Of a stretch of 16,959 bases of DNA, positions 1 through 16,959 are shown piece by piece. Location of the stretch: assembly GCA_002255105.1 (NCBI GenBank), contig NJEK01000009.1, positions 1 to 16,959 of the forward strand, given 5' to 3'. The first letter of the stretch is position 1. Each line of letters opens with the position of its first letter. This DNA comes from Candidatus Wolframiiraptor sp. EX4484-121. Lineage in GTDB: Archaea > Thermoproteota > Nitrososphaeria_A > Caldarchaeales > Wolframiiraptoraceae. Under the pieces are notes generated by a model. The model worked only from the letters and a program-made list of their open reading frames with translations. It had not been told where the DNA came from and searched no databases. The position numbers and the translations under genes were made by a program.

Positions 1-8
1 TGATATCG

Positions 9-2081: not shown

Positions 2082-2233
2082 CGAAGGTCAAGCCGTTCGC
2101 CTTCGGGATGTCCGTCGTCGAGGCCATGTTCACCATACCCGAGGAGGAGGGGGCGTCGGCGAGGCTTGAAGAGTATCTCAGGAGATTCGAGGATATTCAG
2201 GAGATAAATGTCTTAATGAGTACGAGGCTCTAA
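2072..2233 (+). pseudogene. C-terminal fragment of archaeal elongation factor 1-beta (aEF1-beta)
   Basis: A 53-residue frame from the ATG at 2072 to TAA at 2231-2233 contains KVKPFAFGMSVVEAMFTIPE, then an acidic helix LEEYLRRFEDIQEI and the terminal strand NVLMSTRL. This matches the second half of aEF1-beta, the roughly 90-residue guanine-nucleotide exchange factor for aEF1-alpha: a PxAFGL segment, then a strand, the PEEEGG loop, and a C-terminal strand ending in Arg-Leu. The first alpha/beta half, about 35-40 residues, is missing. Its start lies inside the truncated zinc-ribbon gene in another frame. The simplest reading is that one deletion or misjoin removed the 3' half of the ribbon gene and the 5' half of this one. 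If no other copy exists in the genome, an assembly error is more likely than loss of this core gene. Confidence 0.72.
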
Positions 2234-2311
2234 CCTAATAAACCTAAGTCATGCATAATTAAACTCTGAACGGCTTTGGCTTAAATAGTGGTCTCGTAAA
2301 GGATTATTCAG
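2234..2311 (+). promoter_or_regulatory. Promoter of the Cdc48-like gene
   Basis: A TATA-like element, cttaaatag, lies at 2279-2287. Transcription starting about 25 nt downstream would begin almost at the ATG (2312), so the message is probably leaderless or nearly so. A weak aaagga lies 8-9 nt before the ATG. The AT-rich stretch upstream (cataattaaactc) holds no gene. Confidence 0.4.
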
Positions 2312-4486
2312 ATGAAGGTTAGGGAGCTGAGGTTGAGGGTCGCCGAAGCGCGTCAAAGAGATGTCGGATATGGTATAGCGAGGATAGATAGGGAGGTTGG
2401 AGCCTCAGCGGGATTCCAGACCGGAGACATGGTTGAGATAAGGGGTAGGAAGATAGCGGCCGCAACCCTCTGGCTGGGATACCTCGAGGATGAGAAGGAT
2501 GTTATCAGGATAGACGGCTACATCAGGAGCAACGCGGGAGTCTCGCTGAACGATTGGGTCACGGTTAGGAAGGCGAACGTGAAGGAGGCTCAGCTGGTCG
2601 TCTTGGCCCCGGTGAGTTCCTCGATAAGACCCGATGAGAACTTCACGAGGCTCGTCAAGAGCAGGCTTATAGAGTATCCGCTCGTCCAGAAGAACATAGT
2701 TCCAGTCCTATTCTTCGGAAACCTATTCACCTTCGCAGTCATCCAGACTAGGCCCTCCGGGATAGTTAAGATAACCCCGAAGACCAAGCTCGTCATCCAC
2801 AGCAAGGTCGTCCAGGAGAGGGCGTTCAGAACCAGCGTAACCTATGAGGATATTGGAGGACTGCAGGAGCAGATCCAGAGGATAAGGGAGATGATAGAGC
2901 TCCCGCTAAGATATCCGGAGCTATTCCAGAAGCTTGGAATAGATCCTCCGAAGGGCGTCCTGCTCTACGGCCCACCCGGATGCGGTAAGACCTTGTTGGC
3001 TAAGGCGGTCGCGACCGAGGCTGAGGCGAACTTCATCCTGATAAACGGCCCTGAGATCATGAACAAGTATTATGGTGAGACGGAGGCGAGGCTTAGGGAG
3101 ATCTTCAGGAAGGCCGAGGAGGAAGCCCCGTCGATAATATTCATCGACGAGCTTGACGCGATCGCGCCGAAGAGAAGCGAGGTGACGGGAGAGGTTGAGA
3201 AGAGGGTTGTGGCCCAATTACTGGCCCTAATGGACGGACTCGAATCAAGGGGCCAAGTAATAGTTATCGGTGCGACGAATAGGCCGAACGCCCTCGACCC
3301 AGCTCTCAGGAGGCCTGGGAGATTCGACCGGGAGATCGAGATAGGGATACCGGATAGGAATGGGAGGAAGGAGATCCTACAAATACACACCAGGGGCATG
3401 CCCTTGGCCGAGGACGTGGATCTCGACAAACTAGCCGAGATAACCAGGGGATATACTGGAGCGGACCTAGCCGCCCTATGCAGGGAGGCGGCGATGAAGG
3501 CTATTAGGAGGATTCTGCCGAACATAGACTTCAGCGAGGAGAAGATCCCGCCCGAGATCTTAGATAATCTCGTCGTGGTCATGAAGGACTTCATGAACGC
3601 CTTCAAGGAGATAACCCCGACCGCTCTAAGAGAGGTTGAGATAGAGGTTCCAAACGTTAGATGGGAGGATATAGGAGGACTTGAACAGGTTAAGCGGAGG
3701 CTTATAGAGGCGGTTGAATGGCCGCTAAAGTATCCGGAGAAGTTTGAGAGGCTCGGAATCAAGCCCCCGAAGGGGATATTACTATACGGTCCGCCTGGGT
3801 GCGGAAAGACCCTGCTCGCGAGGGCGATAGCTACCGAGAGCGAGGCCAACTTCATCTCCGTCAAAGGGCCTGAGATATTCAATAAGTGGGTCGGCGAGTC
3901 TGAGAAGGCGATAAGAGAGATATTTAGAAAGGCCAGGCAGGCATCTCCATGCATAGTCTTCTTCGATGAAGTTGAGTCGATAATATCGAGGAAGGATATG
4001 ATCGATGACTCCTCCGGGGTCGCGAACAGGGTTGCAAGCCAATTCCTGGCCGAGATAGATGGGATAGAGGAGCTCTCGGACGTCATGGTCATCGGAGCCA
4101 CGAACAGACCTGATCTGATGGATCCGGCCGCCCTCAGGCCCGGGAGATTTGATAGACTGATCTACGTCCCACCACCGGATGAGAAGGCGAGATACGAGAT
4201 CCTGAAGATCTATACGAGGAAGATGCCCCTATCGCCGGACGTATCCTTGAAGGAGCTTGCCTCCAGAACCGAGGGATATTCTGGGGCAGACCTAGCGGCG
4301 CTCTGCAGGGAGGCGGCCATGAATACCCTCAGAAGAAACCTCGACGCGGAGTATGTCTCGAAGATGGACTTCGAGGAAGCCTTGAAGATCGTTAAGCCAA
4401 GCATCTCCCCGCAGATGATCAAGGAGTATGAAAGGATCGGGGAGCTGCTCAGATATCATGAGAGGCAGCTGACTATGATAGGCTGA
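2312..4486 (+). CDS. cdc48: Cdc48/VAT-like AAA+ ATPase
   Basis: The 724-residue protein has the Cdc48/p97/VAT layout. An N-terminal double-psi barrel and beta-clam region (about 1-185) starts with [19 protein letters not shown] and is followed by two AAA modules. D1 has Walker A GPPGCGKT at 220-227, Walker B IIFIDE ending at E280, and [19 protein letters not shown] carrying sensor 1 and arginine-finger residues. D2 has GPPGCGKT at 493-500, Walker B IVFFDE ending at E553, and [19 protein letters not shown]. In archaea this hexamer unfolds proteins and feeds the proteasome. Length is close to the usual 730-750 residues. The C-terminus (RQLTMIG) lacks an obvious HbYX proteasome-docking tail. The start follows a TATA box at leaderless spacing. 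A small winged-helix gene follows 4 nt after the stop. Confidence 0.95.
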
Positions 4487-4490
4487 GCTG

Positions 4491-4772
4491 ATGGATATGA
4501 AAGGTGTTGGAAAGAAGGCCGTTAAAAGAGGGATTAGACCTGGAAGCGAGGTCTATCCGAGGATCATAGAGATTTTGGAGAAAGTTGGGGGAAAATCTCT
4601 CGAAACCGACCTATTAGATGAGTTGAGGAAAAGGGGCATGGATCTAACCCTCCCAGAGCTAAGACACATGCTGATGAAGCTCGAGATAAGGGACAAGATC
4701 AGGGTATTAAGCCTTGACCGGGAGAGAAAGGTCGTCGAGCTCGTCAGGACGAGGGAGATCACAAAGATTTGA
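4491..4772 (+). CDS. Small winged-helix-like protein, co-transcribed with cdc48
   Basis: The 93-residue basic product begins with MDMKGVGKKAVKRG, then reads as a winged helix: helix YPRIIEILEKVGG, helix LETDLLDELRKRG, a turn and likely recognition helix TLPELRHMLMKLEIRDK, then two strands IRVLSL and KVVELVRT. The ATG at 4491 lies 4 nt after the Cdc48 stop, so the two are probably one transcript; an in-frame ATG at 4497 is an alternative start. The lysine-rich tail suggests nucleic-acid binding, but winged helices also mediate protein contacts, so a Cdc48 adaptor role is possible. No specific family recognised. Confidence 0.65.
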   Translation: MDMKGVGKKAVKRGIRPGSEVYPRIIEILEKVGGKSLETDLLDELRKRGMDLTLPELRHMLMKLEIRDKIRVLSLDRERKVVELVRTREITKI

Positions 4773-4895
4773 ACTTGAGGCCGACCCGAAGATGCATATC
4801 GAGTTGAGGCAAGGAACGTAGTCCTGAAACATGAAGGTGGTAGGGGCCGCTATGAGGTCTGCGGGATTAGCGGAGATTTTCTGGATAGAGCATCT

Positions 4896-5780
4896 TTACT
4901 TTACCGCTCCGGCGACAAGCCCTCTTATCAGATATCTCCTGAAGAGCACCACGATTATTATGGCTGGTATCATGGCCATAACTCCCATTGCGCACATCAA
5001 TCCCTTGCTGTATCTCGGAACCGCGACGGATAATCCTATGATCACCGGAAGGGTTCTTGCGGCGGCAGATTTGGTGAGAATTAGGACGAAGAAGAACTCC
5101 CCATATGAGATCATGAACGAGGTTATGGCGATTGCCACGATCGCGGGCTTTATGATGGGAAGGGTTACCTTCCGCAGGATTTCAAAGTAGGAGTATCCAT
5201 CAACCCTTGCGGCGTCTTCCATGTCTATAGGTATCCCCATGAAGTATGTGTTTAGAATCCAGATCGTGAACGGCATCGTGAACATTATGTGAACTAAGAT
5301 GACCGAGATTAGGGTGTCAAGTAATCCGAGGCTCCTTATAATGACGTAGTATGGAACGGCGATGACGACCGGCGGCATCAGCCTCCCGACTATCGAGGCA
5401 AGGAATAAGGGTGTATCTCCCCTGAACCTTATCCTCGAAAGAGCGAAGGAGCCCAGCGTCCCCGCTATCATGTTATAGATCATTACCGTCACACCGACTA
5501 TCACGCTGTTCAAAATCGCCCTTGGGAAATCCCTTATGGTTCCGGGAACGAATAGGAATAGAGAGGTCCCGAGCTCCATGAAGTATTTTATCGCCTCATC
5601 CACGTTAAAGCAAAACCAGTAATTTCTGAGAGATGGATTCGGCGGGAACAAGTATGGTGGAACCGTGTAGATCTCGCTGTCGGATTGCATGCTGAGATTT
5701 ACCATCCAGTAGATCGGGAATAATACCCAGAACGCGAGGAGGAATGCGGCCACATACACCCCAACTCTATTCAATTTCAT
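4896..5780 (-). CDS. CUT1-type ABC importer permease, MalG-like
   Basis: This 294-residue inner-membrane permease has six expected membrane segments, the first at about residues 8-27 (VYVAAFLLAFWVLFPIYWMV). The cytoplasmic coupling motif is EDAARVDGYSYFEILRKVTLP, starting at E188, which matches the EAA---G---------LP consensus for contacting the ATPase. Length and N-terminal layout fit MalG-type partners of sugar or polyol importers. Its ATG lies 6 nt after the stop of the MalF-like gene, with a GGTGTGAT ribosome-binding site formed by the end of that gene. It is the last gene of the operon; the 3' end faces the winged-helix gene. The substrate cannot be told from the permease. Confidence 0.9.
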   Translation of the reverse strand: MKLNRVGVYVAAFLLAFWVLFPIYWMVNLSMQSDSEIYTVPPYLFPPNPSLRNYWFCFNVDEAIKYFMELGTSLFLFVPGTIRDFPRAILNSVIVGVTVMIYNMIAGTLGSFALSRIRFRGDTPLFLASIVGRLMPPVVIAVPYYVIIRSLGLLDTLISVILVHIMFTMPFTIWILNTYFMGIPIDMEDAARVDGYSYFEILRKVTLPIIKPAIVAIAITSFMISYGEFFFVLILTKSAAARTLPVIIGLSVAVPRYSKGLMCAMGVMAMIPAIIIVVLFRRYLIRGLVAGAVK

Positions 5781-5786
5781 CCCACA

Positions 5787-6671
5787 TCACACCCTCAATC
5801 TGAGCCTACCAAGCCTTAACGCCTTAAAGTAAGCATAGATCAATAAGCCCGTCAGGGCTAGGATCATTATCGTCACGGCCCCAGCCTGTCCAAAGTTGAG
5901 GTAGCTGAACATCCTCTCATAGGTGAAGTACGTTATGAGTTTTGTGAAGTCCGCGGGCCCCCCAGCCGTAATGACGTAGACGGGATCAAAGCACCAGAGG
6001 GCGCCGAGAGACGTATAGACCAACACTATGTGGAGAATGGGTTTGAGCCAGTTAAAGGTGACGACTCTGAATCGCGCTAAAGGTTTGGCGCCGTCTATCA
6101 AGGCGGCCTCATAAAGCTCTTTGGGAATGGATTGGATTCCCGCGAGGAATAGGAGGGTGGGTAGGGGGGTTTGAACCCACAGATACGCTAAGATCATTAT
6201 GAACATCGCCGGCCATTGCATGGACAGCCATGACTGATACCTGTCTATGAAGCCTAGGCTTAACATTATGTAGTTGAATAGCCCGAAGTTTATGTCGAAT
6301 AAGAATCTGAAGACCGCGCCGCTGACGACGAGCGGTATGCCCCATGGGATGAGAGCTAATACTTGAAGTATCTTCACACCCTTAAAGTCCATGGATAGTA
6401 GAACTGCCTCTCCGAGCGAGACCAGAGTGACGAGGGGGACCGTTATCAGGGCGAAGATCCCCGTCGCTCTTAGAGAGGTTATGAAGACCGGGTCGGAGAA
6501 TAGTGAGATGTAGTTGTCTAAGCCGCAAAAGTGTGGGGGGATAGCCGATTTAAGATTATAGTATGTGAAGCTGAGATAGAATGCATAACCAAGCGGGTAA
6601 TAGCCTAATAAAAATAGGGGGGTTAAGGCCGGTATCAGACAGATAAGTATTGTTCTTATCTTCTGATTCAA
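5787..6671 (-). CDS. CUT1-type ABC importer permease, MalF-like
   Basis: A 294-residue permease with a first membrane segment near residues 6-30 and at least five more. The coupling-helix motif is EAALIDGAKPLARFRVVTFN at 188-207. The EAA and Gly are conserved, but the usual Leu-Pro that closes the motif is replaced (TFNWLKP). It lacks the long extra N-terminal region of enteric MalF, as is normal for archaeal and Gram-positive CUT1 permeases. Translation starts at TTG (6671), separated from the binding-protein stop by one base, with AGGAGG about 12 nt upstream inside that gene. No nearby ATG offers an alternative. It should pair with the MalG-like permease as a heterodimeric channel. Confidence 0.9.
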   Translation of the reverse strand: MNQKIRTILICLIPALTPLFLLGYYPLGYAFYLSFTYYNLKSAIPPHFCGLDNYISLFSDPVFITSLRATGIFALITVPLVTLVSLGEAVLLSMDFKGVKILQVLALIPWGIPLVVSGAVFRFLFDINFGLFNYIMLSLGFIDRYQSWLSMQWPAMFIMILAYLWVQTPLPTLLFLAGIQSIPKELYEAALIDGAKPLARFRVVTFNWLKPILHIVLVYTSLGALWCFDPVYVITAGGPADFTKLITYFTYERMFSYLNFGQAGAVTIMILALTGLLIYAYFKALRLGRLRLRV

Positions 6672-6672
6672 T

Positions 6673-8199
6673 CTACATGCCGGCCTCCTTTTTCGCCTTC
6701 TTCCAGTCGTCAGCTATCTCCTTTAGGAATTTTAATATGTCGCTCTCGCTATGGCTTCTGGCCCCCGTTAGGAATTCCTCAAACTTTGGCTTAACCCTTC
6801 CACCCACCTCGCTGCTTGGAGAGCTGAACCAGTCTCCCCACCATGGCGTTAGGTGAGGATCTCTCCATAGGATCGGCGACAACTTCTCATACTGTTCAAG
6901 GAGTACATCGACCGGTATCTTCAACTTCTCCAACGCCTTCTTGTTGGTCGGATCCTCCATGACAGGCCTATATGCAGAGGTTACACCATACTGTCTGATC
7001 AGCCTGTTGCAGACGAAATACTCTCCATGCTCAAAGTCCGGCCTCGCATCCGTCGTCTTCCCTCCCAAGAACTGCATAACACGCCAGACAGCCTCCTGGG
7101 CATCCTTTCCCCTATCCATACAGCGTTTCGAGACGCTGTAATTGGTCGGATGGTAGACCGTGTATCCCGAGCCTGGATTCAGGCACATCGTTATGTTCCC
7201 GCTCTCCTTGGCCTCGGGGACGTTTGCTCCAGCTATGTCGTAGTCCGGGAAGGCGAGGGCGAATGTTACGCTGCCAGCTCCTATAGCCGTCGTTATCCCC
7301 GACTCATCATATTCCCTAATTCCGGGAGAGATCGTCTTATCCACGAAGACCCTGTCGAGGAACCACTTTACGGCGTCATAGAAAGGCGTCCCCCTATCGT
7401 CGAATATAGGATTCAGATCCTCATCGAACATGTAGTGCATTCCCTTCTTCGGCTCATGCATCCCTATCATGATCATATACCACATGGCCGGGAATCCCCA
7501 AGACCAGAGCGCGCCGATTGGATAGTCGCAGATCCCCTTCTTCTTTATCTTCAGAGCCTGTTCGGCGAGTTCGTCATAAGACTTTGGAGGAGCGCCTATA
7601 CCAGCTTCCTCGAGATGCCTCTTGTTATATGCGAGGACGTATGGACCCGCCCAGTAGCAGAGTCCATGAACCTTACCCGTGAATGGGTTGATATAGAAGT
7701 CCCTCATCCCCGGATAGATATCGTCCAAATATTTCCTGATCTCGGGGAAGTAATCCTCCATATCCACAGCCCATTTCCTATATTGGACGACATATGCGAC
7801 GTCAGGGGTAGCGTAGTGTATGTCGACCGGGTCTCCGGCGGCATATCTCGTGTAGAGGGCCTCGGCGAACGGGGGGCCCAGCACCGTAACTTTCAGGGAT
7901 ATGTCGGGATTATTCTTATTGAAGATCGCGGCATTATCATTACACAGCTCGACACCCCAGCTCCAAATTCCCCACTCAATCTCCACCTTCTTCCCGGGAG
8001 GCGCGGTTGGAGTGGTTGTGACCGTTGGAGTGGCGGTGGCTGTAACGGTTTTAGTGACCGTGGCAGTCTTGGTTACAGTAACGGGTGCAGCCGGCCTCGA
8101 TGCAAAATATCCGGCCAACCCCCAGCCAACCGCAGCTGCAACAGCTAATCCGCCAACTGTTCCGAGGAACTTACGTCTCGACATTTTCTGCTCAGACAT
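6673..8199 (-). CDS. Tat-exported extracellular solute-binding protein (family 1)
   Basis: The 508-residue product starts with a twin-arginine signal: SRRKFLG at residues 7-13, then a hydrophobic stretch to about 32. There is no Cys after it, so it is not a lipoprotein. A Thr/Val/Ala-rich stalk follows (about 37-66, KTATVTKTVTATATPTVTTT), then a globular region with the style of family 1 sugar-binding proteins, including DPVDIHYATPDVAYVVQYRK and FGSPS-like C-terminal loops. The signal may remain as a membrane anchor, with the stalk as spacer and probable O-glycosylation target. It is longer than typical maltose-binding proteins. It is the first gene of the permease operon, with SD gaggt 6 nt before the ATG. 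The ligand is unknown; sugar or polyol is inferred from the family and neighbours. Confidence 0.85.
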   Translation of the reverse strand: MSEQKMSRRKFLGTVGGLAVAAAVGWGLAGYFASRPAAPVTVTKTATVTKTVTATATPTVTTTPTAPPGKKVEIEWGIWSWGVELCNDNAAIFNKNNPDISLKVTVLGPPFAEALYTRYAAGDPVDIHYATPDVAYVVQYRKWAVDMEDYFPEIRKYLDDIYPGMRDFYINPFTGKVHGLCYWAGPYVLAYNKRHLEEAGIGAPPKSYDELAEQALKIKKKGICDYPIGALWSWGFPAMWYMIMIGMHEPKKGMHYMFDEDLNPIFDDRGTPFYDAVKWFLDRVFVDKTISPGIREYDESGITTAIGAGSVTFALAFPDYDIAGANVPEAKESGNITMCLNPGSGYTVYHPTNYSVSKRCMDRGKDAQEAVWRVMQFLGGKTTDARPDFEHGEYFVCNRLIRQYGVTSAYRPVMEDPTNKKALEKLKIPVDVLLEQYEKLSPILWRDPHLTPWWGDWFSSPSSEVGGRVKPKFEEFLTGARSHSESDILKFLKEIADDWKKAKKEAGM

Positions 8200-8203
8200 A
8201 TCA

Positions 8204-8303
8204 AACCTCGTATTTCTTACATTGGTGAGTTATATAAATTTTTTTAAGGAATTTCGAGAAATCGAGCAGAAATTTTATATAAATGGCTTAAGATTGGAGT
8301 TTG
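8204..8303. promoter_or_regulatory. Divergent promoter region: binding-protein operon and oxidoreductase
   Basis: Two near-mirror TATA boxes face outward. For the minus-strand binding-protein gene, aatttatataac lies at 8230-8241, giving a leader of roughly 10 nt with gaggt before the ATG at 8199. For the plus-strand oxidoreductase, tttatataa lies at 8274-8282, about 26 nt before the ATG at 8304, so that message is probably leaderless. Between them, TCGAG occurs twice in direct orientation, 8 bp apart (8254-8258 and 8262-8266), a candidate site for a shared regulator. Functional assignment is inference from spacing. Confidence 0.6.
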
Positions 8304-9359
8304 ATGTCTTCTGAAGAGCTTGGTGTTGGTATAGCTGGAGCTGGATGGGTCTCGACCCAGTATGTCCCCGCCTTTGAGAAGAATCCGCATACAAAGGTTG
8401 TGGCCATAATGAGCAGAAGGTTGGTCAGCTGTCAAAACCTAGCTAAGAGCTCCGGATTAAAAGACGTGAAGTTCTACACAGATTACAGGAAGCTCGTTGA
8501 CGATCCGGATGTGGACATAATAGCGATCTGCTCCCCGCAACAGCACCACGCAGAGCAAGCCATCTTGGCAGCTGAGGCAAAGAAGCATATGGTGATCGAA
8601 AAGCCTGTGGCCATAAGTCTTGAGCAATTGAAGGAGATGAGGGACGCCGTTAGAAAGGCCGGCGTTAAGACTGTCGTGGGATTCGTGTTGAGGTGGAACC
8701 CATTATTCGAGACGATAAAATCCTTTGTCACCGAGGGTTCCCTCGGTGATATCTATTACATTGAGACGGGATATAACTCGCATATTGCGGATTGGTGGAG
8801 CGGCTGGAGGTGGGCGAAGAAGAAGGAGTACGGCGTGAGCTCATTCCTCGTGGCAGGCGTTCACGCAATCGACGCGGCGAGGTGGCTATCTTGTAGGGAG
8901 CCAGAAAAGGCGAATAATATAACCGAGGTATTTGCGTACGCCGGTGGACATAGATTCGGCAAGGATATGGAGTATTATGGTCTCGAGGTGATGCTTGTGA
9001 AGTTTGAGAACGGCGCCGTAGGGAAGATAAACTCAAACTTCGATTGCGCAAGCCCCTATTATTTCCCGGTGACGATATTCGGTGATAAGGGAACTATCGT
9101 GAATGATAGATTTTGGGTTCCATCAAGGTTTCCTGGACAGACCGACTGGGTTAAGATACCCACAATCTTACCAGATACCGCAGATGTGAGACATCATCCA
9201 TTTGAGGGGGAGGTTAATCACTTCGTGGACTGCATACTGAAAAATAAAGAATCCCACTGTAACCTAGAGGATGCCATCAACACGCATGAAGCCGCCCTCG
9301 GGGCCATAATATCTTATACGGAGAATAGGCCTGTGAAGCTTCCGCTTATAAAGGATTGA
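8304..9359 (+). CDS. Gfo/Idh/MocA-family NAD(P)-dependent oxidoreductase
   Basis: A 351-residue dehydrogenase. The N-terminal Rossmann domain opens with GIAGAGWVS (residues 9-17, dinucleotide-binding glycine motif), and the family's EKP motif is at 99-101. The C-terminal alpha/beta domain carries GVHAIDAARW with H187 at the usual catalytic-histidine position. Such enzymes oxidise sugars, inositols or sugar acids using NAD(P). I chose ATG 8304 over the in-frame TTG at 8301 because the TATA box puts the transcript start at or near the ATG. It lies between and divergent from the importer genes, so it probably acts on the imported compound or its product. Substrate not predictable. Confidence 0.88.
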   Translation: MSSEELGVGIAGAGWVSTQYVPAFEKNPHTKVVAIMSRRLVSCQNLAKSSGLKDVKFYTDYRKLVDDPDVDIIAICSPQQHHAEQAILAAEAKKHMVIEKPVAISLEQLKEMRDAVRKAGVKTVVGFVLRWNPLFETIKSFVTEGSLGDIYYIETGYNSHIADWWSGWRWAKKKEYGVSSFLVAGVHAIDAARWLSCREPEKANNITEVFAYAGGHRFGKDMEYYGLEVMLVKFENGAVGKINSNFDCASPYYFPVTIFGDKGTIVNDRFWVPSRFPGQTDWVKIPTILPDTADVRHHPFEGEVNHFVDCILKNKESHCNLEDAINTHEAALGAIISYTENRPVKLPLIKD

Positions 9360-9404
9360 TGCCGAGTTTCGTCTTTAAGGCTCGGTTGCCGATAATCCTT
9401 TTTA
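9360..9404 (+). terminator. Possible terminator between convergent genes
   Basis: After the oxidoreductase stop a short imperfect stem (ccgag at 9362-9366 with ctcgg at 9381-9385) is followed by a T-rich run, cctttttat, at 9397-9405. Archaeal termination is mainly driven by T-runs, so this is plausible for the plus-strand gene. The run overlaps the stop of the convergent ATPase gene. Confidence 0.3.
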
Positions 9405-10481
9405 TGGGTAGATGAGATCCTCGTTTTCATCGAAGATGTACAGCTTTTCGAGAAGCGGTTTAATCCAGACCTTTGAGCCTGTTCTGGGGGTTCTGAGATA
9501 GGGTACTTTGGCGAAGATCATATTATTCCCCACCCTCAATGTCAAGATGCTTTCTGAGCCCATCGGCTCAACAGTCTCGACGAGCGCCTCCAGCCCAGGG
9601 GGAGTTCTTAGCACGTCTACGGCGGAGGGTCTAAGTCCAAGGATCAATTTCCGACCAACCATCCCTGACAACTTTTCGCCGAGTTTTGTGACATCTATCT
9701 TGAAATCACCTGATGAGAGTATGAGTTTATCACCCTCTCTCATTAGCTTACATTCCAGCACATTCAGGGGTAGGGAGCTAACGTATTTTGCTATGAAGAG
9801 CTTCCTCGGCCTATCGAAGAATTCTTTTGGCTCCCCCACCTGTAAAAGCTCTCCCTTATGTAGGAGGGCGATCCTATCCGCTATTGTTATGGCGTCGGCC
9901 GTTGCAAAGGTGGCCATCACCGCCGTCTGTTCGAATCTCTTCTGAATCTTCCTGATCTCGACCCTCGCATACACTCTGAGCTTTGCGTCGAGATGGCCGA
10001 GAGGCTCATCCAATAGGAGGATCTTCGATCTCTTAACTAAAGCCCTTCCTAGAGCCACCCTCTGCCTCTCTCCCCCGCTGAGCTGGGCGGGTCTTCTATC
10101 CAATAGATGCTCTATCTTAAGTAGCTCGGCTGTCTCGCGAACCCTGCCTCTTATCTCCTCCTCGGATAGCTTGAGTTTTCTCAGGGGGAAGGCGAGGTTC
10201 TCATATACGGTCATGTGGGGATATAGGGCGAGGGTCTCAAACATCATGGCTACATCTCTCTCAATAGGTGGAACATCATTGACAAGTCTCCCATCTATAT
10301 AGATCTCGCCCTCATCCGGGGTCTCCAGACCGGCGATCAATCTCAGGATAGTGCTCTTTCCGGATCCCGGGGGACCTAAAAGGCTGAAGAACTCCTTGTC
10401 TTTGACCCTGAGGTTTACGTTCTTCACAACAGTTCTCTTACCATACCGTTTTGTGACGTTCTTCAAATATATCTCGGGCAT
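9402..10481 (-). CDS. MalK-like ABC ATPase with degenerate Q-loop and switch histidine
   Basis: With the start I prefer (ATG at 10481, AGGTG 6 nt upstream) the product is 359 residues, the same length as its partner. A GTG at 10490, directly after the upstream stop, would add MFS. Numbering from the GTG: Walker A GPPGSGKS at 39-46, canonical signature LSGGE at 137-141, Walker B LLLDEP with E162, and a MalK-type C-terminal regulatory domain (LGLRPSAVDVL). Two key positions are altered. The Q-loop Gln is Glu (AMMFETLALYPH, E85), and the switch region usually written THDQxEA reads TFATADA (F195 for His). Its own nucleotide site is therefore expected to hydrolyse ATP poorly, while its intact signature can complete the partner's site. 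Confidence 0.9.
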   Translation of the reverse strand: MPEIYLKNVTKRYGKRTVVKNVNLRVKDKEFFSLLGPPGSGKSTILRLIAGLETPDEGEIYIDGRLVNDVPPIERDVAMMFETLALYPHMTVYENLAFPLRKLKLSEEEIRGRVRETAELLKIEHLLDRRPAQLSGGERQRVALGRALVKRSKILLLDEPLGHLDAKLRVYARVEIRKIQKRFEQTAVMATFATADAITIADRIALLHKGELLQVGEPKEFFDRPRKLFIAKYVSSLPLNVLECKLMREGDKLILSSGDFKIDVTKLGEKLSGMVGRKLILGLRPSAVDVLRTPPGLEALVETVEPMGSESILTLRVGNNMIFAKVPYLRTPRTGSKVWIKPLLEKLYIFDENEDLIYP

Positions 10482-10490
10482 GCTAAACAC

Positions 10491-11570
10491 CTACATTATC
10501 ATCTTCTCCGTCTTCTTATCAAAGATATGGAACCTTTTAAGTTCTATGCAGACGAAGGCTCCAGGCTCAACTGGCGTTACGCTCGGGACCAATGCCTTAA
10601 TAATCTTATCTCCCACTCGTATATCCAGCGAGAACTTGTCCTCCATGAACTCTATAAAATCGACCTTGCCCTTGAGATGACTCTCACTTTCACAGACCTC
10701 ATGTATTTCGAGATGTTCGGGTCGAAACCCGAGGACGAGATCGTTCCCAGAGGCTTTCTCCTCAATGAGCTTTGCATATTTGGAGACATCGAGTGTGAAG
10801 TCGTCGAGAGATAGCTTCCTCTTTTCGGGGTTGTAAGTGACGTCGAGGAAGTTCATGGGAGGGCTTCCTATGAATCCGGCCACGAAGAGGTTTGCGGGAT
10901 TATGATATAGGTCTTCGGGCGTGCCGTATTGCTGTAAAACCCCAAGATGCATAACCGCGATCCTGTCGGCCATCATCATGGCCTCGGATTGATCGTGGGT
11001 AACATAGATTATTGTTTGATTCAATTCCTCGTGTAATTTCTTAAGCTCGGCTATCATCGACAACTTAAGCTCCGTCTCAAGGTTCGTCAAGGCCTCGTCG
11101 AGAAGGAGGACCTTAGGTCTCCTAACGAGAGCCCTTCCAAGCGCGACCCTCTGCTTCTCACCCACGTTGAGATCTGATGCGATGTGATCGAGGAGGTGAT
11201 CTATCCTGAGCATCTTCGCGGTCTCAAGAACCTTCTTCCTGATTTCATCCTTCGGATAGCCCCTCTGCTTCAACGGAAACTCAAGGTTGTCTTTTACAGT
11301 TAACCCCGGATAGACCACTGGGAACTGGAAGACCATAGCCACGTCCCTCTCCGCTGGCGAGAGATCGTTCACTATCTGATCATCTATGTAGATGTTTCCC
11401 TCATCCTGTTTCTCAAGACCTGCGATGCATCTGAGTGTTGTAGTCTTACCAGATCCGGATGGACCTAAAAGGCAGACAAACTCTCCATCTTTTATCTCAA
11501 GCGTTAGATTCTTAACCGCGACGGTCTCTCCAAAGGTTTTCGTTAGGTTCTCGATAAAGACCCTGCTCAT
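10491..11570 (-). CDS. MalK-like ABC ATPase with degenerate signature motif
   Basis: A 359-residue cytoplasmic ATPase of the MalK/UgpC class: Walker A GPSGSGKT at 36-43, Q-loop Q82 (VFQFPVVYPG), Walker B LLLDEA with E159, switch H192 in THDQSEAM, then a TOBE-type regulatory domain (LGFRPEHLEI). The signature is LNVGE (134-138) instead of LSGGQ/E. The D-loop reads ALTNLE where PLSNLD is usual. So its own catalytic residues are complete, but the signature it offers to its partner is degraded, exactly complementary to the following ATPase gene. The two genes abut (TAG then GTG). A TATA box (cttaaatatc on the minus strand, 11601-11610) precedes the ATG by about 30 nt. It probably energises the upstream MalF/MalG-like permeases. 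Confidence 0.92.
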   Translation of the reverse strand: MSRVFIENLTKTFGETVAVKNLTLEIKDGEFVCLLGPSGSGKTTTLRCIAGLEKQDEGNIYIDDQIVNDLSPAERDVAMVFQFPVVYPGLTVKDNLEFPLKQRGYPKDEIRKKVLETAKMLRIDHLLDHIASDLNVGEKQRVALGRALVRRPKVLLLDEALTNLETELKLSMIAELKKLHEELNQTIIYVTHDQSEAMMMADRIAVMHLGVLQQYGTPEDLYHNPANLFVAGFIGSPPMNFLDVTYNPEKRKLSLDDFTLDVSKYAKLIEEKASGNDLVLGFRPEHLEIHEVCESESHLKGKVDFIEFMEDKFSLDIRVGDKIIKALVPSVTPVEPGAFVCIELKRFHIFDKKTEKMIM

Positions 11571-11647
11571 TATCAGTCCCCGAGCGTATCGTAGGACAGG
11601 GATATTTAAGCTTAACGACTAGAATTTCCGAAGACTTATGGAATAAG
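11571..11647 (-). promoter_or_regulatory. Promoter of the two-ATPase operon
   Basis: On the minus strand, cttaaatatc at 11601-11610 is a good archaeal TATA element, about 30 nt before the ATG at 11570. The predicted leader is about 10 nt and has no strong ribosome-binding site. The ATPases therefore have their own promoter and are not dependent on read-through from the flap endonuclease gene upstream. Confidence 0.45.
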
Positions 11648-12682
11648 TCAGAGCCATTGATCGAGGCTTGTGACACCTCTTCTCTTTTCTAAGGATGACC
11701 TAAGCTCGGAGAGGGCCTTCTCAACCCTGGCCTCGGAGAAATCGTGTTCTCCGCAGAGCATGTCCTTTATTCCATCGTAGTCCGGCTCCCCCCATTCGAT
11801 GATAAAATCAGTTGTGACCTGAGGTTTCAGGAATAACTCCCTTATCTCGGCCGGATCCCTCTCCAAACTCTTGCCTATGGCCTTCAACGCGTTCTCGGCG
11901 GCTCCATACTCCCTAATGAGCTTCAACGCCGTCTTCGGCCCTATCCCCTTAATCCCTTCACAGTAGTCTGTCCCGATTAATATCCCGACATCTATCAACT
12001 GCTCTCTGGTTATTTTGAGCGTTTCCAGGAGCTTATCGAGATATATGATCTCGGGCTCGATCTCAACATACTCTTTTCTGCCCGGGAGCTTCCTTCTCCC
12101 AACTATCGAGAGATTCCTGACGAGCCTTGGAGATCCGAAGAGGAGGGAGTCGAAGTCCTGCGATCCAGAGGCGTAGGCGTATCCGCCCCTGACGAGGTAT
12201 GCCGCCTGAGCCTCGCCCTCACTTGGAGCCTGAACTATCGGGATCCCCATGAGCTTCAGCAACCTCTTCGAGCTCTCGACTATGAACTCGTTTAGGGTGG
12301 CCGCCTGCTTCGCGTATTTCTGAGCCTCCTCAATCCTCCCCTCGGCCAAGGCCCTCTCATAGAGCCTCGCGGCCTCAGCCCTCCTCTCCTCCCTCCTCTC
12401 AACGGTCTTCATCTTAAGTTCCGGAGGCCTTCCATCATAGACGAATATGGGCTTGATCCCGAGCTTCATGAAGTTTATCGTCCTGAAGAAGATCCCGCTT
12501 AGATGGCTCGTGATCCTACCCCTCCTATCCATGAGGGGTCTCCCATCAGGTCCCCTGATTATCGTGATGAACTGGTAGAGGATGTTGTAGGCGTCGAGGG
12601 CGATCGCCTTACCCGCCAGGGCCTCGAGGCTTATCCTCTCCATCGCCTCTGGAGGAATTATATCCCTAAGCTTAACCCCCAT
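11648..12682 (-). CDS. fen: Flap endonuclease 1 (FEN1/XPG family)
   Basis: A 344-residue structure-specific nuclease that removes 5' flaps during Okazaki-fragment maturation and repair. It starts with MGVKLRDIIPPE and shows the metal-binding acidic residues of the family: D30 (ALDAYN), D83 (VYDG), the two Glu of PSEGEAQAA, the Asp pair of SQDFDSL, and the Asp of GTDYCEGI, followed by the helix-hairpin-helix GIKGIGPKTALKLI. The C-terminus ends in TSLDQWL, a sliding-clamp (PCNA) binding motif with Leu at the final position where Phe is most common. Length is typical for archaea (about 340). Promoter: palindromic TATA gtatttatac at 12711-12720. SD ggag lies 4 nt before the ATG. Confidence 0.96.
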   Translation of the reverse strand: MGVKLRDIIPPEAMERISLEALAGKAIALDAYNILYQFITIIRGPDGRPLMDRRGRITSHLSGIFFRTINFMKLGIKPIFVYDGRPPELKMKTVERREERRAEAARLYERALAEGRIEEAQKYAKQAATLNEFIVESSKRLLKLMGIPIVQAPSEGEAQAAYLVRGGYAYASGSQDFDSLLFGSPRLVRNLSIVGRRKLPGRKEYVEIEPEIIYLDKLLETLKITREQLIDVGILIGTDYCEGIKGIGPKTALKLIREYGAAENALKAIGKSLERDPAEIRELFLKPQVTTDFIIEWGEPDYDGIKDMLCGEHDFSEARVEKALSELRSSLEKRRGVTSLDQWL

Positions 12683-12744
12683 CTCTCCAACTAAGTAGAC
12701 CTAACGCCGGGTATAAATACTGTGATCGCGTTGAGGAGCCGAAT
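12683..12744 (-). promoter_or_regulatory. Promoter of the FEN1 gene
   Basis: The TATA element gtatttatac (12711-12720 on the minus strand) lies about 33 nt before the FEN1 ATG, giving a leader near 8 nt that includes ttggagag. This suggests FEN1 is transcribed separately from the transglutaminase-like gene 62 nt upstream. Confidence 0.5.
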
Positions 12745-13575
12745 CTAAGATCTCTCCACCCAATCCAGGAATTCTTGGGTTGAGGTGAAGGTCTTGACGA
12801 AGGTGTCGTTCGCCACCATCCTTATACTCGGGCTTATCATCTCCCTTCTCCAGTGGTCGAACCAGAGGGCCACAGCATCCTCCGCCTCGAGAAATGTATA
12901 GGCTTCTCCCTCCACGCCCGGAGACTCCATGTAGATTAGATTTGCGAGCCCATGCTCCATCAAAAAATCCTTCTCCTCACGTCTTATCGCAAGCGGGTTT
13001 AGCCAGACTTTCCCCCTCTTCATGGACATCTCCAACAGCACCCTCGCATCCGTCACATAGGCTCCGGCCGGATCCAATATCATGATCTTATCCCTAAGCC
13101 TATATATGGTGCCTACATGGCAGGTTTCGCCGCCGCAGATCTGGACTACGTAGACCTCCTCCCCCCTCCCGAGAACCGCCTTAAGCATCGTGTAGGTTAG
13201 GGTTGCTAGGTCCTCGCAGTCCCCACCGCCTCTGGTGAGCGTCTCGTTTGGAAGTGAGAGGAAGTCTTGATGAGACCCCAATCCATCATCTGTTAGATAT
13301 TGGTGGAAGTCATCATCTAAGTATTCTAGGTTTAGCATGATCCACTCGAGAACACCCTTCGCCTTGAGCTCGGGAGGTGTTTCGGGTCTCAGCCTAAGCT
13401 CTCCGTAGACTACGCCCTTAACCGTCGCCGGGCTCGCCTGCTTTAACATGTCCGGTATCCGATCGCTTGGGGTGAAGATTCTGTCCGAGATCTCCTTCAA
13501 TCTCTCCCTAATCCTTGGAAGACTCACCCCTATCTCGGAGCACCTTGAAGCCAGGTCGCCGTATTTTTCCTTCAA
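12745..13575 (-). CDS. Transglutaminase-like (papain-fold) protein, N-terminus in another frame
   Basis: The intact frame gives 276 residues from a TTG at 13575. A transglutaminase-like core is recognisable by its Cys-His-Asp triad: C120 in GGGDCEDLATL, H153 in ETCHVGTIYR, D168 in ILDPAG. Archaeal members of this fold are usually membrane-anchored and may act as proteases, peptidoglycan-like hydrolases or non-catalytic scaffolds; the activity here is not known. The TTG is probably not the true start. The same frame stays open upstream (YEKLRLQYEDLKEKYGDL, a coiled-coil-like stretch), and a well-placed ATG with a membrane segment lies in the neighbouring frame (13572-13688). A single inserted base near 13620 would join them into a 314-residue anchored protein. 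Confidence 0.75.
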   Translation of the reverse strand: MKEKYGDLASRCSEIGVSLPRIRERLKEISDRIFTPSDRIPDMLKQASPATVKGVVYGELRLRPETPPELKAKGVLEWIMLNLEYLDDDFHQYLTDDGLGSHQDFLSLPNETLTRGGGDCEDLATLTYTMLKAVLGRGEEVYVVQICGGETCHVGTIYRLRDKIMILDPAGAYVTDARVLLEMSMKRGKVWLNPLAIRREEKDFLMEHGLANLIYMESPGVEGEAYTFLEAEDAVALWFDHWRREMISPSIRMVANDTFVKTFTSTQEFLDWVERS

Positions 13576-13688
13576 GTCCTCATATTGGAGCCTGAGCTTC
13601 TCGTAACTATCGGCTGGAGGTATGAGAAGATGAGGAGTACCGCCAAGATGCAGGCTGCTGTCGAGGCCGCGACCGCACTCCAGCTCAT
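13572..13688 (-). pseudogene. Signal-anchor N-terminus of the transglutaminase-like protein (frameshifted)
   Basis: From ATG 13688 this frame encodes a 38-residue peptide. Its first 26 residues form a classic membrane anchor (AACILAVLLIFSYLQP), then the frame runs to a TGA at 13572-13574. Just after LQP the adjacent frame continues as ADSYEKLRLQYEDLKEKYG into the transglutaminase-like protein. The ATG has a run of six G about 4 nt upstream, and a TATA-like cttttattca at 13717-13726, about 33 nt away. So this is the likely true start, and one base is missing near 13616-13620, either in the genome or in the assembly. Confidence 0.6.
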
Positions 13689-13731
13689 AACAACCCCCCT
13701 AAACCATATGTCATGCTGAATAAAAGCTGAT

Positions 13732-14793
13732 TCATTCACGCTTAACCCTTAGGTCCAGGGCTATTGTGGATCTCCGAGGAGCTATCTCCATGACAGTCCT
13801 GGCATAGACTACATCCGCGCCGAATCCCAGATCCCGAACCCTCTCCAAGGCCCTCTCACACGCATCTCCGATCGGATCTCCTCCCCCACCCACCAAGTAT
13901 AGATGTATTATGCCGTTCGGTTTCACCTTCTCCAACGCTAGATCGAGGTAGTTTATCGAGCTATGTGGGAGATCCATTATCACCCTATCGAATTTCTCAC
14001 GAACCTCTTTCAGAACCTCTCTGCAGTCTCCCAGAATGGGCTTCACCCTATCCTCAACCCTATTCAACCTAATATTCTCGAGCATGAGCCTATACGCCTC
14101 AGGATTCAACTCTATGGCGAGGATCTTCGCGGTAGGCTGCCTCCTCGCTATGACTATCGAGAAAGATCCTATTCCGGCGAACATGTCTAGAACCTTCTCG
14201 CCCCCCGATACCGCGCTCGCGACCCTGAGTCTCTCGCCGGACATTCTGGGATTGAAGAAAGCCTTCTTCAAATCTACTCGGTATATGCATCCATGCTCTC
14301 GGTGGATCGTCTCGAATTTGTTTAGGCCCGCGATGACCCTATATTCCCTCAACCTATATACTCCCTTGGTCGCGCCCTCCTTCGACAAGACCGTTCTAAC
14401 TCCGGGATAGAGCCTCATCAACCCCTCGGCCACAATCTTCTCATAGGGCTTAAGCTCCCGCGGGATCTCGACCAAGATTATGTCCCCGATCAGGTCGTAG
14501 GATGATGGGAGGAGGTCTAGCAATTCCACTGGGAGCTTCCCCGAGACCGCCTCCTCCAAGCTCCTCGGCCTCCTCGGCCTCTCCTCGAAGCTCGCGGCCA
14601 CCATAGATACCTTAAGCTCTCTGAGGATGTCGCCGACGCTTCCCCCATCCTTTAATGGGAAGTGGATGAATCCATCCTCCTCGAAGGGCTTTAACCTGAG
14701 GTTCAAGACGCCGAGTTTCAGAAGCTTTCTCCTGACCTCCTCAGCCCTATTCTTCTCAACCCTCGCCGCCCAACACCTGACCTGCTTATCCAA
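13732..14793 (-). CDS. trm5: tRNA (guanine-37 N1)-methyltransferase Trm5
   Basis: A 353-residue SAM-dependent methyltransferase that makes m1G37 next to the anticodon, which prevents +1 frameshifting. Family marks are the N-terminal D1 region, the segment YRVDLKKAFFNPRMSGER before the catalytic domain, the SAM-binding motif VLDMFAGIGSF at 201-211, and the active-site region MDLPHSS at 273-279. Length with the D1 domain fits Trm5b-type archaeal enzymes; distinction from Trm5a, which can also act in wyosine synthesis, is not certain. It starts at TTG (14793); a stop lies just upstream in frame and no better start is seen. The next gene on the strand begins 43 nt after its stop. Confidence 0.93.
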   Translation of the reverse strand: MDKQVRCWAARVEKNRAEEVRRKLLKLGVLNLRLKPFEEDGFIHFPLKDGGSVGDILRELKVSMVAASFEERPRRPRSLEEAVSGKLPVELLDLLPSSYDLIGDIILVEIPRELKPYEKIVAEGLMRLYPGVRTVLSKEGATKGVYRLREYRVIAGLNKFETIHREHGCIYRVDLKKAFFNPRMSGERLRVASAVSGGEKVLDMFAGIGSFSIVIARRQPTAKILAIELNPEAYRLMLENIRLNRVEDRVKPILGDCREVLKEVREKFDRVIMDLPHSSINYLDLALEKVKPNGIIHLYLVGGGGDPIGDACERALERVRDLGFGADVVYARTVMEIAPRRSTIALDLRVKRE

Positions 14794-14907
14794 GCTCTCA
14801 CAGGATCACAGAACTTCTCAGGATTTAGAGATCTTGTTCGGGCTTGATGGCCGAGTTATAGTTTATTAGTTCGGCTGCCGAGGCGTAGGCGAGAAAGTTG
14901 AGCGGCG
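14794..14907. promoter_or_regulatory. Divergent intergenic region between trm5 and the PINA-like gene
   Basis: The 114-nt gap has one AT-rich island, ttatagtttattag (14856-14869), that could serve both directions. On the plus strand tttatta at 14862-14868 is about 40 nt before the ATG at 14908. No strong ribosome-binding site is seen for either gene. Confidence 0.3.
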
Positions 14908-16362
14908 ATGGAGGAAGTAATCATACCGGATCTATCGGCTATCCAGCTGAAGGCCGCCTCCCACCTCGTTAGGGAGGGGCGAGTGAGGGGTAGGCTTCTC
15001 ATCCATAGGGTTTTGTTGAAGAAGGTTATGGGAGTCAAGCTCGAGTACGTCGGAGACCTTAGAGACAGGGAGAGGAGCGATAGATTATTGATAGCTGAGG
15101 AGGCCGCGAGGCTTGACGCCTCTATCCTGACATGCGATCCGGTGATGGCCCAGCTCGCCGAATCTATGGGCTTGAAGCTCCTCTACGAGCTCCCCCCACC
15201 CCCATTCTCGATATCCCAGCTCTTCGAGGAGGATGTCATGAGCATCCACATAAAGGAGGGGCTTCCGCCCAGGGTTAAGCGGGGGGTTCCGGGTAGGTGG
15301 AGGTTTGTCGAGGTATCCGAGAAGCCCGTTTCGAGGCATGAGCTTGAGCTGTTGATAGCCCATCTGATGAGGGAGGCTTACAAGAGCTTCGGGGTTGACG
15401 CATTCCTCGAGATAGATAAGCCCGGGGTTAAGATCTTCCAGTTAAGGGATTATAGGGTTGTTATCACTAGGCCGCCTTTCTCGGATGGATTCGAGCTAAC
15501 CCTCGTCAAGCCTGTCATAAGGAGGGATCTAAGAGACTACTATCTCCCACCGCAGGTCGTCGATAGGCTTGAGAACAGGGCCGAGGGGATCCTGATCGCG
15601 GGCCCGCCTGGAATGGGCAAATCGACCTTCGCCCAAGCCCTAGCCGAATACTATCGCTCCCTGAATAAGGTCGTCAAGACCATCGAGAGCCCGAGGGATC
15701 TGAGGGTCTCACCCGACATAACCCAGTATTCGAAGGCGGCGGCGAGGGAGAGCGAATTGCATGACGTCCTCCTCCTAAGTAGACCTGACTACACGATCTT
15801 CGACGAGATAAGGGATTCAAGCGACTTCGACCTCTTCATAGATCTCAGGCTGGCCGGGATAGGGATGATAGGCGTAATTCACGCGACATCCCCGATAGAC
15901 GCGATTCAGAGGGTTGCGAACAGGGTTGATGTCGGACTGCTCCCATCGATAATAGATACGGTTATCTTCATGGATAAGGGTGAGATCCAGTCGATCTACG
16001 TCTTGGAGATGACCGTAAAGGTTCCAGCGGGGTTGAGGAAGGCGGATCTAGCGAGGCCGACCGTCATAGTCAAGGATCTCCTAACCGATGAACCATTATA
16101 CGAGCTATACGTCTTCGGGGAGAGGACCTTCGTCGTCCCCGTGAAGAAGCTTGAGGAGGGAAGGAAGCCGAGGACCCCTATCAGGCAGATAATGAACGCG
16201 CTTCAGAAGCATATCCCGGACTTCAGGATCGAGGAGGAGGGGAGCTTGGTGAGAATCTATATTCCGGGCCGCTACTACAGGGTCTATGTTAGGAAGGTTC
16301 AGAATAAGCTCCTAAAAATAGCCAGGAAGTATAGCCTAACCCTAGAAGCCCTGCCGAGCTAA
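14908..16362 (+). CDS. PINA-like ATPase: PIN domain, hexameric PilT-type ATPase, KH domain
   Basis: The 484-residue protein has three parts. An N-terminal PIN-like domain spans about 1-95 (IIPDLSAI with D8; SDRLLIAEEA with D58; ILTCDPVMAQLAESMG with D77). A central RecA-like secretion-type ATPase has Walker A GPPGMGKS at 232-239 and Walker B YTIFDE with E300. A C-terminal KH-like domain covers about 420-484 (IEEEGSLVRIYIPGRYYRVY). This is the architecture of archaeal PINA, a hexameric ATPase linked to Holliday-junction migration in Sulfolobus. The PIN domain is shorter than I expect: the stretch between the second strand and D58 that normally holds a conserved Glu and several helices is almost absent, so nuclease activity is doubtful. 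It is divergent from trm5. Confidence 0.88.
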   Translation: MEEVIIPDLSAIQLKAASHLVREGRVRGRLLIHRVLLKKVMGVKLEYVGDLRDRERSDRLLIAEEAARLDASILTCDPVMAQLAESMGLKLLYELPPPPFSISQLFEEDVMSIHIKEGLPPRVKRGVPGRWRFVEVSEKPVSRHELELLIAHLMREAYKSFGVDAFLEIDKPGVKIFQLRDYRVVITRPPFSDGFELTLVKPVIRRDLRDYYLPPQVVDRLENRAEGILIAGPPGMGKSTFAQALAEYYRSLNKVVKTIESPRDLRVSPDITQYSKAAARESELHDVLLLSRPDYTIFDEIRDSSDFDLFIDLRLAGIGMIGVIHATSPIDAIQRVANRVDVGLLPSIIDTVIFMDKGEIQSIYVLEMTVKVPAGLRKADLARPTVIVKDLLTDEPLYELYVFGERTFVVPVKKLEEGRKPRTPIRQIMNALQKHIPDFRIEEEGSLVRIYIPGRYYRVYVRKVQNKLLKIARKYSLTLEALPS

Positions 16363-16442
16363 ACCCAAATATCCGCGCATCGATCGTAGTTTGGATGATG
16401 TGGATCCGCCTCTGAATGGTGATGAGGTGGGAATACCGCTGA
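16363..16442. other. Short convergent intergenic gap
   Basis: An 80-nt gap between the PINA-like gene and the convergent ThiN remnant. I see no terminator hairpin, T-run or RNA gene in it. Confidence 0.4.
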
Positions 16443-16959
16443 TCATCTAGATGCCTCGGCGACCAGCCTCCTAACCTTATCCACGACGTCCATGGAGTCT
16501 CTTCCGAAGACTAGGGTCATGGGCTCCTTTCCCCAGTCTCCCAGATGATAGACTAGGTCTGGGACCCTTCCCCCAACCCTCCTCACGGCCACCTCTATAC
16601 CCCACGGAACAGTCCTCCCCTCGAGCCTCTTAATCTCCTCGGGCTCCTCCCGCCTATCATAGAAGCTTACGGTCCACCCCAGCTTCTCGGCAGCCTCGAT
16701 AAGCCTCTTATCATACCTTAGATTCATCGCCGACCTAATCCTGGGATCGAACTTCATGGCGGTTAGGACCGCGTTCGCGACATGCCTCGACGCCCCAAAC
16801 CAGGGCGCCTCAGATCGCGACATGCCTCGACGCCCCAAACCAGGGCGCCTCAGATGCCTTAACCCCATCATAGACCCTCACGATCCTCCCAGGTATCGCC
16901 GCTACGTCGGATAGGTCGTCTGCCCCCTCGATCGCCATCACTAGATTCGATTGAGATTC
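16443..16959 (-). pseudogene. thiN: ThiN (thiamine-phosphate synthase) domain, disrupted and 5'-partial
   Basis: Read on the minus strand from the window edge, the frame gives NLVMAIEGADDLSDVAAIPG, RIVRVYDGVKASEAPWFGAS and RHVA, then meets a stop (16810-16812). The next frame continues NAVLTAMKFDPRIRSAMNLR and on to a TGA at 16443-16445. Together these are a ThiN domain, which couples HMP-pyrophosphate with thiazole phosphate in archaeal thiamine synthesis; the conserved His of SRHVA is present. The break is caused by a perfect 40-bp tandem duplication (16776-16815 and 16816-16855). Removing one copy restores a single frame. The N-terminus lies outside the window, so it could be a ThiD-ThiN fusion, a stand-alone ThiN, or a ThiR-like regulator with a helix-turn-helix. 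Confidence 0.85.
16776..16855. repeat. Perfect 40-bp tandem duplication
   Basis: Two identical 40-bp units, 16776-16815 and 16816-16855, each starting cgcgacatgcctcgac and ending gcgcctcagat. Because 40 is not a multiple of 3, the duplication shifts the reading frame of the ThiN gene. Identity without a single mismatch points to a very recent event or an assembly artefact. Confidence 0.95.

Follow-up and report, generated by a model that had tools for sequence, protein, structure and literature searches.

Why should two neighboring MalK-like ATPases each be degenerate where the other is intact? The question is raised by a 16,959-nucleotide stretch of Candidatus Wolframiiraptor sp. EX4484-121 (contig NJEK01000009.1, positions 1 to 16,959 of the forward strand; hereafter the window), which encodes two such ATP-binding cassette (ABC) proteins, ATPase A and ATPase B, in immediate succession. 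In the textbook ABC importer, MalFGK2, the two ATP sites are equal. From sequence comparison we propose, with a probability of about 0.85, that A and B associate head to tail as an obligate heterodimer and, with a single hydrolytic site, drive a CUT1-type importer of a sugar or polyol.

Both genes lie on the minus strand. ATPase A (359 amino acids; 10491-11570) ends in a TAG that directly adjoins the GTG start of ATPase B (9402-10490), with a gap of 0. Read from the GTG at 10490, B has 362 amino acids; its database copy (P0003) has 359, starting at an ATG 9 nucleotides inside, so that its positions (E82, E159, F192) follow the numbering of Escherichia coli MalK, as do Q82, E159, and H192 of A. 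At 43% identity, A and B are two distinct ATPase genes. Each has an ABC_tran domain followed by an OB/TOBE regulatory domain, the architecture of MalK/UgpC-type ATPases: A scores 109 bits for ABC_tran, 45.8 for OB_MalK (cut-off 27), and 20.1 for TOBE_2, just below 21, and B scores 119 for ABC_tran, 24 for TOBE_2 (cut-off 21), and 21.7 for OB_MalK, below its cut-off. The predicted structures are a confident, full-length MalK fold for each protein, and the best 50 rows of the structure comparison for A and for B are ABC ATPases, the top ones MalK-type.

The motifs, read by alignment to MalK of E. coli K-12, are split between the two proteins. ATPase A (GPSGSGKT, VFQFPV, LNVGE, LLLDEALTNLE, VTHDQ) has intact cis catalytic residues, namely the Q-loop Gln82 in VFQFPV (11325-11327), the catalytic Glu159 (11094-11096), and the switch His192 (10995-10997), and a degenerate signature, LNVGE, at residues 134-138 (11157-11171). 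ATPase B (GPPGSGKS, MFETLA, LSGGE, LLLDEPLGHLD, ATFATADA) has an intact signature, LSGGE, at residues 137-141 (10068-10082), an intact D-loop, GHLD, at residues 165-168 (9987-9998), and a catalytic Glu (E162 in the 362-residue numbering). Its Q-loop Gln is replaced by Glu (E85, or E82 in MalK numbering; 10236-10238) and its switch His by Phe (F195, or F192; 9906-9908). A first-pass annotation of this DNA had described these complementary defects; re-reading and the MalK alignment confirmed its open reading frames, its coordinates, and every residue it named, and the defects are real. One more can be added: the D-loop of A is TNLE (residues 162-165; 11076-11087), with Asp replaced by Glu, versus SNLD in MalK, and this change also falls on the degenerate composite site.

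According to excerpted text of PMC7756269, a composite ATP site takes its Walker A and B motifs and its Q- and H-loops from one nucleotide-binding domain (NBD) and its signature from the other. With this geometry, an A-B dimer would have one consensus and one degenerate site, and each homodimer would be broken at both: A paired with itself would lack a canonical signature, and the window's B paired with itself would lack the switch His and the Q-loop Gln. In the heterodimer, site 1 would combine Walker A, Q82, E159, and H192 of A with LSGGE and the D-loop of B; it has the full consensus and is predicted to hydrolyze ATP. Site 2 would combine Walker A, Glu82, and Phe192 of B with LNVGE and TNLE of A; it is degenerate, and ATP bound there may close or hold the dimer, with slow or no turnover. 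About one ATP would then be spent per transport cycle. We infer heterodimerization, nucleotide occupancy, stoichiometry, partner permeases, and substrate alike. In exporters with a degenerate site, resetting appears to need no more than a single hydrolysis, and TmrAB can keep its degenerate site closed around ATP when ADP occupies the consensus site (excerpt of PMC7756565); by analogy, a one-hydrolysis mechanism may carry over to this importer.

If this division of labor is genuine, it should be seen beyond one contig. Relatives came from two protein searches and one profile search, each giving the best 120 of more than 7,000 matches. The B-type set, 30 cluster representatives, was separated by score: in the profile search full-length members reached at least 543 bits, the fragment P0034 reached 477, and the next other protein 463. 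For the A-type set, rank and motif served to select 31 cluster representatives (P0002, P0123-P0150, P0162, P0172). Because this choice was partly motif-based, the grouping was checked on a 97-protein tree with the motif columns removed, in which the 12 A representatives formed one clade (100/99) and the 12 B representatives another (100/100). The few named members of the two groups are assigned to Nitrososphaerota, Bathyarchaeia, and Thermoproteota, and one is called Halobacteria; together with a flap endonuclease in the window that scores above the cut-off of the archaeal FEN1 model, they mark the window as archaeal.

Among A-type proteins, the Walker A Lys is present in all 30 readable sequences and Gln, Glu, and His in 31/31 each; SGG occurs in 0/31, and the D-loop Asp is kept in 21/31 and lost in 10/31. 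B-type proteins are the converse: LSGGE, and with it SGG, is found in 30/30, GHLD with its D-loop Asp in 30/30, and the catalytic Glu in 29/30, and the switch His is in 0/30 (Phe in 23, Val in 5, Leu in 1, Pro in 1). They keep the Q-loop Gln in 6/30, with Glu in 24/30, and the Walker A Lys in 18 of 29 readable sequences, with Arg in the other 11. Taken over the 31 A and 30 B representatives, site 1 (A in cis, B in trans) is canonical in 183/183 residue cells and site 2 (B in cis, A in trans) in 74/181, cells that are non-independent through the common ancestry of the relatives. The deviations are confined to one composite site, and the other is fully consensus, which supports the first-pass view that an A-B heterodimer, should it form, would have one site of each kind. 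The same annotation had held that canonical residues in related pairs would mark the defects as isolated errors; the relatives, A-type without SGG and B-type without His throughout, carry the same deviations. Chance or sequencing error at the motifs is ruled out for the window pair by this family conservation.

The remaining 202 MalK-like proteins of the same three lists are canonical at Lys, Gln, Glu, and Asp in 202/202, at His in 198, and at SGG in 173. The 29 without SGG are a second archaeal A-like group (LTAGE, LTVGE, and similar; e.g., P0151-P0159, P0161), in which Gln and His are canonical except for His replaced by Pro in three (P0184, P0199, P0200). One further protein, P0212, lacks the switch His (Pro) alone and keeps SGG. 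In P0199 and P0212, long stretches identical to those of other A-like proteins alternate with divergent sequence of B-like character; P0184, P0199, and P0212 look like mosaics, from chimeric assembly or from gene conversion involving an A-like and a B-like paralog. The sequence FQFPV at the Q-loop of A (11316-11330, minus strand) is specific in these lists: it occurs in 31/31 A-type, 0/30 B-type, and 0/202 other MalK-like proteins. A pattern scan of genome contigs with the A alignment, in which ordinary MalK patterns dominated, gave no archaeal A-type locus among the 80 loci listed; in a scan of viral contigs with the B alignment, 0 of 7 pattern matches held up; and an A-profile search of 117 relatives of a Haloferax genome listed a best match of 393 bits, on a scale where the score of a true A-type protein is uncalibrated.

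Does the same layout exist elsewhere? A proteobacterial glycerol-operon ABC importer with two ATPases was reportedly described by Ding et al. in 2012. On plasmids of Azospirillum, Paracoccus, and Sphaerotilus we found a glycerol operon of glpD, two adjacent ATPases, two permeases, DUF2160, and a binding protein; glpK follows the operon in Azospirillum and Paracoccus and is divergent in Sphaerotilus. Ruegeria has a similar set in a region without glpD or glpK. The records annotate the ATPases merely as 'ABC transporter ATP-binding protein'. We call them GlpS (upstream) and GlpT (downstream) by gene order, presumably in line with the naming of the GlpSTPQV importer. A class sample of 142 alphaproteobacterial genomes gave 15 matches in 14 genomes, 12 of them in complete pairs, which together with the four sets above make 16 complete pairs. 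Left out were L108, which is cut by its contig end, L109, where GlpS matches only in part, and L101, where a single open frame contains both GlpS and GlpT. In L101, from Mangrovicoccus, a clean GlpS-GlpT fusion of 753 codons was considered and rejected; the GlpS end matches another frame, and a frameshift is likelier.

All 16 complete pairs have the complementary layout, which bears out the first-pass suggestion of a broader class that includes the glycerol-system ATPases. GlpS has LSGGQ with the switch His replaced by Thr (12 pairs) or Ser (4 pairs: L089, L099, L103, L105) and retains the Q-loop Gln and the catalytic Glu in 16/16; GlpT has a degenerate signature (LTPDA, LTADQ, LSPDN, and similar), keeps His in 16/16, and has an intact Q-loop Gln. 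The GlpT proteins read have FQFPV at the Q-loop, with FQYPVV in the Thermomicrobiales pair L169, where an LDNGT protein with His lies beside an LSGGQ protein with Ser and with the catalytic Glu replaced by Asp. When the A-type protein of L169 was searched against 151 genomes of the G267 phylum, its own genome was the sole match at E 1e-90. In a further, rhizobial and roseobacterial class, Av/Bv (Mesorhizobium L044, Pararhizobium L091, Pseudosulfitobacter L092), an LSVNI ATPase is paired with an LSGGE partner with the catalytic Glu replaced by Asp. In the plasmid regions L082-L087 and L093, no ATPase was out of the ordinary.

To see how often pairing and degeneracy go together, we surveyed all 58 regions around OB_MalK matches in four alphaproteobacterial genomes, a biased sample in that three of them (G002, G003, G004) owe their inclusion to an unusual ATPase noticed earlier (L044, L031, L064). 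The 58 regions contain nine adjacent same-strand pairs: four strictly complementary (the glycerol-type L124, L137, and L161, and L128), three near-canonical (L112, and L127 and L136 with LAGGD in one partner), and two mixed (L126, and L135 with Gln replaced by Glu in both partners and His by Pro in one). Leaving aside L128 and L135, which had already been seen, the tally is three complementary, three near-canonical, and one mixed. In L126 of Mesorhizobium (2770-5543), one protein has Gln replaced by Glu together with GQLE, and the other has LSNGQ, Glu replaced by Asp, and His replaced by Gln, a split of defects that differs from the A/B layout and is unexplained. An adjacent pair thus need not divide its defects cleanly.

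Two extra regions, picked for two close OB_MalK matches, gave one canonical pair (L168, Haloferax denitrificans) and one complementary pair (L169, described above). Across the resulting 60 regions, 16/22 paired ATPases deviate versus 8/51 unpaired ones (Fisher p 4e-6). The eight consist of four false Walker A flags, in which Lys is present and the Gly before it is replaced by Ala or Ser, two frames that are incomplete or misaligned (L139, L149), and two GlpT proteins (L144, in one frame with GlpS, and L145); without the false flags, 4/51 unpaired ATPases deviate. In this sample, then, hardly any strongly degenerate ATPase lacks a paired neighbor. Bacteria also have a two-ATPase CUT1-type class at eight loci (L002, L009, L011, L012, L018, L112, L127, L136), with LSGGD or LAGGD in one near-canonical partner and LSGGE in the other.

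The neighborhood of the window pair suggests which transporter it drives. Downstream on the minus strand, domain matches identify an extracellular solute-binding protein (SBP_bac_1, 508 amino acids; 6673-8199), a UgpA/GlcT/MalF-like permease (5787-6671), and a GlcU/MalG-like permease (4896-5780), both permeases matching BPD_transp_1. These are probably the partners of A and B. A binding protein and two MalF/MalG-like permeases thus accompany the ATPases, as in CUT1 systems, but the pair is not contiguous with them: a plus-strand gene for a Gfo/Idh/MocA-family dehydrogenase (8301-9359, domain match) lies between B and the binding-protein and permease genes (8199 down to 4896). Two typical CUT1 traits given in the excerpt of PMC11519228 are absent. 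An NBD homodimer from a single ATPase gene is replaced here by two ATPase genes, and the motif G[IV]RPE[DH] reads GFRPEH in A and GLRPSA in B. The strict motif occurs in 8/31 A-type and 0/30 B-type proteins, yet in merely 94/202 other MalK-like proteins. Because the window proteins lack it, we term the importer CUT1-type rather than a strict CUT1 member.

Several observations weigh against an A-B heterodimer that runs on one site in this importer. With an opposite-strand gene splitting the pair from the permeases, another permease set could be the partner. The abutting genes and the signs of linkage in relatives speak for the heterodimer, but linkage in relatives is deduced from equal contig sizes rather than from DNA: for 11 A/B pairs, counting that of the window, the size of the longest contig is identical in both lists, the smallest being 2,937 bases, little more than two such genes, and no equal-contig match exists for the remaining 19 B and 20 A representatives. 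The defects recur in these 11 pairs despite an average difference at 40% of positions among the A and 45% among the B proteins. The A and B distances correlate at r 0.94, with 0/5000 permutations as high; this too favors the heterodimer but is confounded by species phylogeny, which alone could explain much of it. No partner of the LTAGE-type A-like archaeal proteins was found in the three search lists of the best 120 matches each; we predict that they have a B-like partner. The near-canonical and mixed two-ATPase pairs of the survey, L168 among them, also count against the one-site heterodimer, as does the catalytic Glu of B: because it is kept in 29/30 B-type proteins, site 2 may not be dead, and slow hydrolysis there is conceivable. 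Loss of this Glu, a common but not universal trait of degenerate sites, is not the pattern here.

Three other explanations can be set against these data. A and B may be separate multitask ATPases that form homodimers with different permeases and tolerate their deviations; multitask CUT1-type ATPases such as MsmX exist (excerpt of PMC11466899), and the intervening dehydrogenase gene would fit. We regard this as very unlikely, as a homodimer of A would be without SGG, and one of B without the switch His, at both sites, residues that the great majority of the other MalK-like proteins keep, and as the deviations fall on one composite site alone. Somewhat less remote, though still improbable, is a heterodimer in which both sites hydrolyze ATP and the substitutions just tune rates. 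The catalytic Glu is retained in B-type proteins and in 16/16 upstream glycerol-operon ATPases, as this would require; the complete loss of His, the prevalent Gln-to-Glu change, and the recurrent Walker A Lys-to-Arg change in B-type proteins, together with the absence of SGG from A-type proteins, argue otherwise. That the genes are decaying or mis-sequenced is hardly credible: many relatives are on draft contigs and the three mosaic proteins look chimeric or gene-converted, but the same deviations recur in 31 A and 30 B separate cluster representatives with other motifs intact, and both window proteins give confident MalK-fold models. An obligate A-B heterodimer with one hydrolytic site is thus the reading we retain.

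Trees with the motif columns masked bear on the origin of such pairs. Archaeal A sits with its LTAGE relatives (98/85) within archaeal MalK, apart from GlpT; joining A and GlpT in one clade costs 31 log units and is not rejected (approximately unbiased [AU] test, p-AU 0.19), and a joint B+GlpS clade is not disfavored (p-AU 0.54). Bv joins part of the near-canonical Y group (96/83) and Av a single-ATPase bacterial row (95/94), both away from A/B and GlpS/GlpT. On a quick tree that leaves out Bac_L065_9062 (which had joined GlpT in earlier trees), GlpS_L107_428, and GlpT_L109_1432, the L169 members join GlpT (87) and GlpS (92) on long branches, with unsure placement. These placements suggest that repeated independent origin is likely, though not proven, for some pair classes. 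The FQFPV present in both A and GlpT could be inherited from a common ancestor or mark a mode of permease contact that both use. It is an evenly balanced proposition that one-engine CUT1-type importers, the proteobacterial glycerol-operon importer among them, are a recurrent design of archaea and bacteria that arose in part independently, with MalK duplicates diverging time and again into a catalytic partner (cis residues intact, signature lost) and a docking partner (signature intact, switch or catalytic residue lost).

How does the window pair compare with known systems? It shares with the glycerol-operon importer two adjacent MalK-like ATPases with complementary defects and the FQFPV of GlpT; that importer differs in having glpD, glpK, DUF2160, and a larger binding protein, in its reverse gene order, in its other replacement residues, and in a GlpS that keeps the Q-loop Gln. 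No glpD, glpK, or DUF2160 was found among the window's open reading frames scanned. The asymmetric exporters TM287/288, TAP, Pdr5, and ABCG5/G8 likewise have one consensus and one degenerate composite site. At the degenerate sites, Pdr5 has an LNVEQ signature and an H-loop change and ABCG5/G8 has a Walker A Lys replaced by Arg (excerpt of PMC7756269), the former resembling the signature of A and the latter the change in B. In these exporters, however, the catalytic Glu is often changed, whereas the MalK-type pair keeps it. RbsA and NupO are importers with one degenerate ATP site, but they are type II importers with two NBDs fused in one polypeptide and a second Walker A without Lys (excerpt of PMC11466899). 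DppD/DppF has been aligned to consensus and degenerate examples (excerpt of PMC12136057). Two NBD proteins also serve an archaeal CUT1 system, the pentose importer of Haloferax volcanii with its NBDs XacJ and XacK (excerpt of PMC11519228); the adjacent H. denitrificans pair L168, a possible counterpart of XacJ/XacK, differs from A/B in being canonical in both proteins. The NBD homodimer is typical of CUT1 importers in the same excerpt. Among the papers listed by our literature searches, with most subscription journals outside their reach, none describes a CUT1 importer with an asymmetric MalK pair. Sequence evidence gives good support to the view that the pair represents the known one-consensus, one-degenerate design in a new form, within a class of transporters for which the literature gives homodimers as the rule.

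Whether one hydrolytic site can suffice for an importer, and why such an arrangement would evolve, are questions studied mostly in exporters. Asymmetric MalK pairs and near-canonical pairs offer a natural set for direct comparison, with the LSGGD/LAGGD plus LSGGE class as a symmetric control. The glycerol-operon importer offers a simple growth assay, by which the one-site idea, if true, would be testable at once on glycerol.

Elsewhere in the window, a 310-amino-acid open reading frame (622-1554, minus strand) is without a Pfam, NCBIfam, or convincing PHROG match. A stand-alone ThiN domain (PF10120) of 142 amino acids (16443-16871, minus strand) matches the C-terminal portion of a kinase model that is longer.

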